Assembly: GCF_017921895.1 (NCBI RefSeq)
Contig: NZ_JAFIDN010000004.1
Coordinates: 186,001 to 250,000 of the forward strand
Length of the DNA: 64,000 nucleotides
From: Natronogracilivirga saccharolytica
GTDB lineage: Bacteria; Bacteroidota; Rhodothermia; Balneolales; Natronogracilivirgulaceae
Direction of reading: 5' to 3'
The notes beneath the pieces were generated by a model that saw nothing but the letters and a program-made list of their open reading frames with translations, was not told the DNA's origin and searched no databases. Made by a program: the position numbers and the translations under genes. This document shows positions 11,420 to 13,871 of the stretch, in pieces (position 1 is the first letter of the stretch; each line of letters starts with the position of its first letter).

Positions 11420-12751
11420 ATGTCAGAAACAACATCCCATATCACATCCAACAGGCGAACCGTTGCCTTTCAGACACTCGGCTGCAAACTCAATTTTGCA
11501 GAAACTTCCGCACTGAAGCAGCAGTTCAGGGGAGGCCGTTTTGAAATCCGGTCATTCGACGACTATGCCGATGTTTATGTGATCAATACTTGCTCGGTAA
11601 CTCAAAATGCCAACAGAGACTGCCGCAAAACGGTCAGAAAAGCTCAAAAAATAAATCCGGATGCTTTCATTGCCGTTACCGGATGTTATGCGCAGCTGGA
11701 GCCGGAAGTAATTGCGGCCATTGACGGTGTTGATCTCGTCTTAGGTGCCAATGAGAAGTTTGACATTCTCGAACTGGCCGGAGATTTTCAAAAACCGGAT
11801 CAGACTGTGATCCATCACACCGATGTGAATGAGGCTGTCGATTTCCACCATGCCTTCTCCTCAAGTGACCGGACGCGGGCGTTTCTGAAGGTTCAGGACG
11901 GATGTGATTACAAGTGCAGTTTTTGTACCATCCCTCTCGCAAGAGGCAAAAGCAGAAGTCCGGAAATCGGTGATATCGTTGAAAATGCCAGACAGCTCAT
12001 TTCCAATGGGTACAGGGAAATCGTACTTACCGGTGTGAATGTCGGTGATTTCGGCAAACAGTCAGGCGAGTCGCTTCTGGATCTGCTCGAAATACTCGAC
12101 AGCCTGAAGGGATTGAGCCGCATGAGAATATCATCGATCGAACCCAATCTGCTTACCGAAGAGATTGTTGACTTCGCAGCCGCTTCAAATACATTGCAGC
12201 CTCACTTCCATATCCCTCTTCAGAGTGGATCAGACCGCCTGCTTCGCCTTATGAAGCGCAGATACGATACAGATTTGTACCGGAACAGGCTGGAGTATAT
12301 TCATTCCAGATTACCGGATGCCTGCATCGGAGTGGATGTCATTACGGGACACCCCGGTGAAACCGATGAGATATTTGAAGAATCACTGTCATTTATTCAG
12401 TCGCTTAATGCCGGATACCTCCACGTTTTCACTTATTCCGAACGCCCCAATACAACTGCCCTCAGCCTCGGCGACACCGTACCCGTTCCGGTTCGCAAGA
12501 CCAGGACACACATGCTCCGAAGAATATCGGAGCAGAAAAAATTCGATTTTGACTCCAAATTTCTTGGCCGGGAACGTACCGTCCTGTTTGAGGACCATCA
12601 GCAAGATGGTCTCATTCAGGGCTGGACCGATAATTATATCCGTGCTTGTGTCCCGTACGATGACAGTCTGATCAATCAGCTTGTCAGGGTCCGGCTTGGT
12701 GAACGGCACCCTGCCGGTACCGTCACTGCATCCATTCCCGAAATGGTATAA
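11420..12751 (+). CDS. mtaB: tRNA t6A37 methylthiotransferase MtaB
   Basis: 443 residues. It is a radical-SAM enzyme that adds a methylthio group to N6-threonylcarbamoyladenosine at tRNA position 37. The N-terminal MTTase domain holds the second-cluster cysteines in TLGCKLN, NTCSVT and TGCYAQ. The radical-SAM domain has CDYKCSFCTIP. The C-terminal ~60 residues have the TRAM-like pattern (RTVLFEDHQQDGLIQGWTDNYIR). The GCKLN form and length match MtaB rather than MiaB or RimO. The gene starts 129 bp after nuoH and looks like a separate transcription unit. Confidence 0.92.
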   Translation: MSETTSHITSNRRTVAFQTLGCKLNFAETSALKQQFRGGRFEIRSFDDYADVYVINTCSVTQNANRDCRKTVRKAQKINPDAFIAVTGCYAQLEPEVIAAIDGVDLVLGANEKFDILELAGDFQKPDQTVIHHTDVNEAVDFHHAFSSSDRTRAFLKVQDGCDYKCSFCTIPLARGKSRSPEIGDIVENARQLISNGYREIVLTGVNVGDFGKQSGESLLDLLEILDSLKGLSRMRISSIEPNLLTEEIVDFAAASNTLQPHFHIPLQSGSDRLLRLMKRRYDTDLYRNRLEYIHSRLPDACIGVDVITGHPGETDEIFEESLSFIQSLNAGYLHVFTYSERPNTTALSLGDTVPVPVRKTRTHMLRRISEQKKFDFDSKFLGRERTVLFEDHQQDGLIQGWTDNYIRACVPYDDSLINQLVRVRLGERHPAGTVTASIPEMV

Positions 12752-12764
12752 ACCGATGCCAATT

Positions 12765-12884
12765 CATCTGTTTAAAATTTTTGATTCATATGGTCAGATG
12801 AACCGAAGGTCACGAAGTGAAATGCCATGACCGTATTTAATCATACGCCTGTTTGTCCGGGCGCCAGCCCGGTCATGGACATTT
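12765..12884. repeat. tandem palindromic repeat, copy A
   Basis: First of two ~120-bp diverged direct copies. The best conserved core, ATGAACCGAAGGTCACGAAG and the next six bases, lies at 12798-12823. Within the copy, GAAATGCCATGACCG (12819-12833) pairs with CGGTCATGGACATTTC (12870-12885), leaving one bulged A. The interior contains a second hairpin, CCGGGC-GCCA-GCCCGG (12857-12872), whose right arm overlaps that of the outer stem. It is non-coding and resembles REP-type or structured RNA elements. Confidence 0.8.
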
Positions 12885-13000
12885 CATGTGTTTATAATTT
12901 AAGATTCTAACGTCACATGAACCGAAGGTCACGAAGTGAAATACCAATGCCGGTTATAATCATGCTTCTGTGTGACGGTAAGCCGCGATGGGTATTTCAT
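12885..13000. repeat. tandem palindromic repeat, copy B
   Basis: Second copy, offset 119-120 bp from copy A, with the same 26-base core at 12917-12942. The foot of its hairpin is GAAATACC (12938-12945) paired with GGTATTTC (12991-12998). Compared with copy A, a G-C pair is replaced by an A-T pair, so the pairing is kept while the sequence changes. The right end lies just before the start of the uracil-DNA glycosylase gene. Confidence 0.8.
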
Positions 13001-13016
13001 CCGAATAAATAAAAAA

Positions 13017-13871
13017 ATGGGTATGAGCAGTCACGATCTAAAAGAAGCCATCAGACAGACCAAAGCTTTTCTTGAGGCCGAAGAAAAAACCTATGGCGCA
13101 TACCGGGTCCCGGATATTTCTTCACAGGAGCAGCAGACTTCATCCGGTCAGTCTTCAAAACATAGTGTTGATGCACCATCTCCATCACCGGAAAGTGAGA
13201 AGGATAAGTCTTCTGCAAAAAAATCCGCTGTTCAGGCCGGTAATTCCGAAGAATCTTCTGAATCGGGATCGGGATCGGCCTCGACCACCACCCTGCAAGA
13301 AGCAGCAACACTTGATGAACTGAGAGAGCTTTGCCTGCATTCAGATGCTCTGCGAACCGACCTTGGTGAAACCAGTCTCGTGTTCGGAACCGGTAATCCT
13401 GATGCCGATATTATGCTTATCGGAGAAGCTCCCGGCTATCAGGAGGACAAACAGGGGGAACCGTTTGTCGGAAAAGCCGGCCAGCTGCTCAACAAAATTC
13501 TTGCCGCAATTTCATTTGAGCGCGATGAAGTTTATATCGCCAATATTCTGAAGCACCGGCCTCCGAATAACCGTGATCCTCATCCGGAAGAACGGGAACG
13601 CAGCCTGCCTTTTCTGTACCGCCAAATTGAACTGGTCAACCCCCTGATTATCTTGTGTCTCGGAAGAATAGCCGCACAGACCCTCCTCAACACAACTGCT
13701 CCCATGAAATCACTGCGAGGGCGGTTTCATCCGTTTCACAATGATATCGAACTTCTGGTGACCTTTCATCCGGCGGCTCTGCTGCGAAATCCTGCCTGGA
13801 AACGCGATACCTGGGAGGATGTAAAAATGCTTCGGAAACGGTATGACAATTTGACTGTTGACCGTTCCTGA
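13017..13871 (+). CDS. family 4-like uracil-DNA glycosylase lacking Fe-S ligands
   Basis: 284 residues. The first ~95 are a low-complexity Ser/Glu-rich region. The rest is the family-4 UDG fold: IGEAPGYQEDKQGEPFVGKAGQ (uracil-binding and catalytic loop), YIANILKHRPPNNRDP, and HPAALLRNP near the C-terminus. It should remove uracil from DNA. Of the four Fe-S cysteines expected in the family only Cys106 remains; the others align with Ser109, His180 and about Arg195. The frame is open upstream to a GTG at 12972, but that part is encoded by the repeat's right arm; ATG 13017 (or 13023) after an A-rich leader is chosen. Confidence 0.85.
   Translation: MGMSSHDLKEAIRQTKAFLEAEEKTYGAYRVPDISSQEQQTSSGQSSKHSVDAPSPSPESEKDKSSAKKSAVQAGNSEESSESGSGSASTTTLQEAATLDELRELCLHSDALRTDLGETSLVFGTGNPDADIMLIGEAPGYQEDKQGEPFVGKAGQLLNKILAAISFERDEVYIANILKHRPPNNRDPHPEERERSLPFLYRQIELVNPLIILCLGRIAAQTLLNTTAPMKSLRGRFHPFHNDIELLVTFHPAALLRNPAWKRDTWEDVKMLRKRYDNLTVDRS

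Follow-up and report, generated by a model that had tools for sequence, protein, structure and literature searches.

A two-unit array between mtaB and a uracil-DNA glycosylase gene probably belongs to a non-autonomous mobile element that inserts beside ATGAA in one Balneolales family

The array between mtaB and a family-4 uracil-DNA glycosylase gene consists, with a probability that we put at roughly three in four, of two units of a ~99-127 bp non-autonomous mobile element that has spread within one Balneolales family and inserts beside ATGAA. It lies in a stretch of 64,000 nucleotides from Natronogracilivirga saccharolytica (contig NZ_JAFIDN010000004.1, positions 186,001 to 250,000; hereafter, the window; genome handle, G000). 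A sequence-only reading of the window had described a two-copy element; both copies are real, but they are not an isolated pair and belong instead to a family of about 100 in this genome. Bacterial interspersed repeats usually gather where they are least harmful, e.g., between convergent genes. Here, unrelated genes of one bacterial family, including the housekeeping genes for SucC, PurQ, MnmG, and bL36, carry exchangeable hairpin leaders at the start codon.

Within the window, the perfect 26-nt core reported earlier (ATGAACCGAAGGTCACGAAGTGAAAT) is present as two direct copies at 12798-12823 and 12917-12942, i.e., at a spacing of 119 nt, and its 24-mer occurred twice as compared with 0 expected from 100 dinucleotide shuffles. 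The hairpin foot pairs TGAAATG with CATTTCA in copy A and TGAAATA with TATTTCA in copy B (Table 1), so that the G-C to A-T exchange holds as originally described. Fold z-scores were about -3 for copy A and about -2 for copy B, and both beat most shuffles. The array does occupy the space after the mtaB stop codon and before the glycosylase ATG, with its left end at about 12761-12763. In 12 relatives, mtaB and the glycosylase gene form a compact operon without the element, the latter gene following closely after mtaB; the two-unit array is therefore an insertion in the lineage of the window. Its orientation is reversed and no gene begins at its ATGAA, making it one of an off-start minority. As a result, the exact placement at ATGAA described below is not visible from the window alone. 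Module C' terminates at gene start codons in relatives, where it is read on the opposite strand.

Table 1. Positions in the window of the array, its modules, and the neighboring genes.
Feature	Position	Strand	Basis
Unit 1 (copy A), with core: left module C', core A, right hairpin B	12761..12887	+	covariance-model match G000:C4:198761-198887, 153.5 bits, E 1.3e-28
Unit 2 (copy B); TTTCAT junction in common with unit 1	12881..13000	+	covariance-model match G000:C4:198881-199000, 123 bits, E 3.1e-22
TTCAT, left (gene-proximal) array boundary; putative insertion target; ATGAA on minus strand, no gene start here	12763..12767	+	sequence and boundary rule of the family
Module C' of unit 1, AT-rich, between TTCATCTG and CAGATGAA	12763..12802	+	unit alignment
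Core module A, unit 1; ACC-GAA-GGT and CAC-GAA-GTG mini-hairpins	12800..12823	+	exact matches
Hairpin B, unit 1; foot 12818-12824 / 12880-12886	12818..12887	+	folding, 40-copy pair counts
Core module A, unit 2	12919..12942	+	exact matches
Hairpin B, unit 2; foot 12937-12943 / 12993-12999	12937..13000	+	folding, 40-copy pair counts
TTCAT, putative own right end of the element	12996..13000	+	sequence; ATGAAAT distal ends elsewhere in the family
mtaB, upstream neighbor	11420..12751	+	TIGR01579, 409.7 bits
Family-4 uracil-DNA glycosylase gene, downstream neighbor	13017..13871	+	TIGR00758, 192.6 bits

A search of the 3.75-Mb genome with the 24-nt core (up to 3 mismatches) returned 34 copies, 17 of them exact, and a reversed-pattern control returned 0. 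With a covariance model trained on 40 copies, we recognized 97 units, some containing the core and some not; nhmmer on 60 fetched stretches gave 107 units, distributed over 72 arrays or solo sites. By a motif-based count, the core was recognized in 25 of 84 full-length units and missing from the other 59; since it is an optional module, a core-based search misses most members of the family. Read towards the gene, a unit begins with its own end, ATGAAAT, followed by a long imperfect hairpin (B), an A/T-rich spacer of ~32 nt (C), and the target ATGAA, and the optional module A, a pair of mini-hairpins with GAA loops, stands at one foot of hairpin B. Tandem arrays contain up to four units with mixed right-hairpin subtypes (CCGGGC, CAGAGC, and GACGGTAAGCCGCC types), and neighboring units have a single ATGAA/TTCAT junction in common. 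For a dozen full units, a 100% identical copy exists at a separate locus of the genome, which points to recent dispersal. The earlier suggestion of a MITE-like relic thus survives as regards dispersal and mobility (about 100 copies, with insertion polymorphism) but not as regards the word "relic," given several dispersed units that are identical.

In a set of 40 family members, the foot pair was G-C in 25, A-U in 9, G-U in 5, and unpaired in 1. The compensatory change is thus no chance reading of two sequences. Further pairs of the B stem were altered on both sides among the same copies, and over both helices 35 cells were changed on both sides vs. 15.7 in shuffles and 3-12 with the partner slid, although these cells are not independent events, as the copies descend from subtypes. 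Covariation at several stem pairs therefore supports the proposed selection on hairpin structure. The counts were made on the named structure instead of the RNAalifold consensus; RNAalifold on a MAFFT alignment returned only a four-pair mini-hairpin, a poor result owing to misalignment of the subtypes in the upper stem. A left hairpin, TTCATSTG/CASATGAA, also exists. Covariation was rejected for it, as its variable S/S pair was standard in 23 of the 40 copies and broken in 17, i.e., near random.

Towards module C, the array end reads ..TTTTAAACAS, followed by ATG. Of the 62 arrays whose gene-proximal end is intact, 47 opened an ORF of at least 60 aa; when the exact offset and at least 38 codons were required (which admits bL36), 45 ended exactly at a gene's start codon, genes being called mechanically. 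Of these 45 unit-abutted starts, 43 read ATGAA; among long ORFs in the window, 11 of 52 did (Fisher p 9e-15). Outside gene interiors, the window contains 41 ATGAA sites, 11 at gene starts and 30 elsewhere. If units inserted at any ATGAA and were purged inside genes, about a quarter of arrays would thus be expected on starts, yet about three quarters were seen there, so that start-codon placement is nearly threefold above plain intergenic tolerance. The remaining quarter or so, including the array of the window, had no recognizable start codon.

Genes carrying units were unrelated. From their N-terminal sequences, we took them to include those for PurQ, PurE, SucC, MnmG, FlgB, FlgK, RfbA, bL36, ZapA, a cobalamin adenosyltransferase, a phytoene-desaturase-like protein, and lipoproteins. 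Several, such as SucC (MNIHEYQAKEIL) and PurQ (MKFGVLVFPGSNCD), begin at precisely the usual position of their relatives, so the ATG is the gene's own and not the element's. The same start-codon rule applied in other genera, where the core was at the opposite hairpin foot. The mean unpaired probability of the start codon was 0.637 behind units vs. 0.488 for ordinary genes (p 3e-11), the background consisting of first-ATG gene calls. The open-access literature gave no account of this family, of start-codon-targeting repeats, or of repeats in Balneolales/Balneolota.

Presence and absence of whole units were observed at orthologous starts. In genus g9, the start of a HlyD-like gene was empty in G014 (..GAGCACAAAAAGGGTTATACATT / ATGAAACGC) and filled in G011 (..CAGCACAAAAAAGATATTATAA / ATGAAATGTCC..(99-nt unit)..AATCAC / ATGAAACGC), with a recognizably homologous upstream leader in the two; like the other empty-versus-filled comparisons, this one is of species at about 80% identity, and the upstream boundary is read through diverged sequence. 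The same gene had two units in G012 and none in G013, G017, G003, and G007. Likewise, the rfbB start in this genus was empty in G015, G018, and G019 and carried one unit in G014 and two in G012. The copies are thus dispersed, their insertions are polymorphic and have exact ends, and no transposase gene lies inside them, which are general features of such elements; to judge from the sequences, the family is a non-autonomous miniature mobile element rather than a regulon or a local duplication. A conserved GGTAACCTTTTG-(N)-GCGTATAG block, which we take to resemble an ECF-sigma promoter, was also seen in front of the HlyD-like gene (L197, L199, and L086). The units lie downstream of it and so would be transcribed as part of the leader.

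Within the same Balneolales family, 17 of 20 genomes matched the covariance model, as did 2 of 40 genomes from the rest of the order, with one match each in the latter; per-genome unit counts are lower bounds, at most 58 candidates having been scored, and the genomes compared are mostly incomplete MAGs. Core searches, which the sequence-only reading had suggested along with a covariance model, gave the same distribution across the order. Both further copies and further covarying positions came to light, whose absence that reading would have taken to suggest a local duplication without function. Named matches were in metagenome-assembled Balneolales/Balneolaceae genomes (isolates CSSed... and DLM2.Bin66), and no viral contig contained the 20-nt core. 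Single units outside the family were one at G051:C182:3045-3068 (L060) and one model match in G026; the former is on a 3.9-kb contig and possibly reflects transfer or a binning error.

The gene-distal end of the unit remained ATGAAAT even where the start read ATGCAA (L150 and L179) or ATGAAG (L146). It therefore appears to be the element's own sequence instead of a duplicated target, with the two ATGCAA cases being few for excluding target duplication. On the other strand, TTCAT is found at the left flank and again at the right end. Together with the ATGCAA cases and the empty sites at two genes, this may reflect the mode of IS200/IS605-derived MITEs, which insert 3' of a short target, end in a matching cleavage motif, and duplicate no target. 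Overall, the anatomy (a pentanucleotide at the left flank and right end, a hairpin beside the end, and no clear target duplication) resembles that of ISDra2-type single-strand transposition.

Whereas the number of copies, the covariation, the abutment on ATGAA starts, and the presence or absence of units are computed results, the following targeting and roles of hairpin and spacer are inferred. The element would recognize ATGAA (TTCAT on the opposite strand) and insert beside it. Insertion would regenerate the target and let the next copy enter at the same place, which would explain the arrays. Units inserted before an ATG would leave the ORF intact, while those inserted within genes would be purged. 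The inserted unit would be transcribed as a 5' leader, its unpaired C spacer would keep the start codon accessible, and a placement that spares the ORF and leaves the start codon open would explain why insertion is tolerated. Hairpin B would most simply be the recognition structure for the mobilizing enzyme. More tentatively, a putative enzyme may target the translation start, recognizing ATGAA perhaps in single-stranded or transcribed DNA, with the unit bringing its own open initiation region; we consider this conceivable, if not probable. If true, each insertion would swap the 5' leader of a gene and leave the site ready for the next unit.

One sub-case of the mobile-element reading, which we consider rather unlikely, is a REP/IS200-type system in which units are moved single-stranded by a Y1 tyrosine (HUH) transposase, either resident or lost. 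A hairpin beside the end, arrays as in BIMEs, and the absence of a clear target duplication agree with it, and TTCAT at the left flank and right end recalls ISDra2, which inserts 3' of TTGAT (PMC2806898). However, Y1_Tnp (PF01797) had no match in six unit-carrying genomes (G003, G007, G008, G010, G011, and G012), while three genomes with Y1 genes (G005, G006, and G009) had no units, although as MAGs these are incomplete. This distribution is opposite to that expected of a mobilizer, and a Y1 transposase was rejected as such. Where a RAYT-type transposase had been proposed as worth seeking, the only Y1 gene of G000 (G000:C14:6911-7273, L031) is an ordinary IS200-type tnpA beside a sigma-54-activator-like ORF, with no core match within 6 mismatches at its locus, and units near Y1 loci amounted to nothing beyond weak matches (E 0.03-0.6). 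TnpB was found in none of 13 family genomes searched. Y1 and TnpB searches of unit-bearing genomes thus yielded no candidate mobilizer, and an autonomous IS200/IS605 partner with the same ends was not found, most of these genomes having neither gene.

REPs are palindromes of 20-50 nt with a preceding conserved tetranucleotide, mostly GTAG, and are thought to be moved by TnpA-REP (PMC8266576). Like REP, BIME, and REPIN, the units are short, extragenic, imperfect palindromes with many copies, mosaic arrays, a conserved hairpin, and no autonomy; unlike those with RAYT, they lack a GTAG/CGTC tag (the 40-unit alignment had no conserved GTAG at the hairpin foot), are longer, and have a start-codon address, and Y1 is absent from most unit-rich genomes, among them G003, G007, G011, and G012. 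Membership in the REP/RAYT class, suggested earlier, is thus not supported. With ISDra2/IS608 and palindrome-associated MITEs, the units have in common a short left-flank target, a matching right-end pentanucleotide, hairpins near the ends, and no clear target duplication, but they differ from ISDra2/IS608 in their TTCAT target, their strong start-codon bias, and the lack of a detected TnpA or TnpB partner. BOX, RUP, and ERIC are likewise modular interspersed repeats of ~100 bp that are transcribed with their neighbors and vary between strains; pneumococcal BOX and RUP, however, are enriched between convergent genes (PMC3049150), whereas the units lie exactly at gene starts. CGTC-tagged REPs are also palindromic repeats with no dedicated transposase known, yet they are much shorter and have a terminal CGTC tag, and the term "start codon" is absent from the paper describing them (PMC3733652). 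Integron attC sites were also considered and rejected, as cassettes are lacking and the dispersed arrays stop at gene starts.

Three other explanations fit less well. A MITE of the conventional kind, with a DDE transposase as its mover and a target-site duplication of ATGAA(A), would account for ATGAA at both ends, and most junctions do not conflict with it. However, the ends (TTCATSTG and ATTTCAT) are direct and not inverted repeats of each other, the distal end is no target copy in the few informative cases such as ATGCAA or ATGAAG starts, and no autonomous partner was seen, making this improbable. We give slightly less credence to spread without transposition, in which units duplicate locally and leaders undergo homologous gene conversion with one another; tandem arrays, identical units, and S bases that vary independently from one end to the other would agree with it. 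Whole-unit gain at an ATGAA start between unrelated flanks offers no homology to drive such conversion, the ends are exact, and arrays mix subtypes. Least probable of all would be a conserved cis-regulatory RNA leader (a riboswitch, thermometer, or regulon element) in front of genes under its control, much as the sequence-only reading had envisaged with an RNA-based regulator. Its fixed distance from the start codon, sense orientation, accessible start codon, and conserved hairpin with compensatory changes would suit such a role, but the carrier genes are functionally unrelated, identical copies precede unrelated genes, whole units are present or absent at the same gene in sister species, tandem arrays mix two to four units of different subtypes, and Rfam 15 had no match in the window at gathering scores.

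If confirmed, a mobile element that inserts beside ATGAA would be an example of a transposable element choosing a site that is abundant yet harmless, and would point to a further mobilizing enzyme. It would also offer a natural experiment on 5' leaders, in which the same gene carries 0, 1, or 2 units in sister species.

Several minor observations concern individual loci. The rfbA start carries arrays of differing unit make-up in different genera (L167 in G000, L212 in G012, L220 in G011, and L223 in G008), possibly as an insertion hotspot or as an inherited array; at rfbA, and likewise at the HlyD-like gene, several of the arrays that different genera carry may have been inherited instead of arising by separate insertions. 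In alignment A1, columns 11 and 41 (the S positions of module C), the base beside the ATG/CAT boundary was nearly always G/C, and the S bases at the two unit ends varied independently, suggesting mosaic ends. Longer variants of module A (CCCAGTGAAACGCGTAAGCGAACCGAAGGTCACGAAGTG), in which mini-hairpin-like motifs with GAA/GTAA loops follow one another, were present at L047 and L069 (G014:C266, 1-60), at L083 (around 1470), and at L060 (around 1480), where the variant directly follows an ATG.
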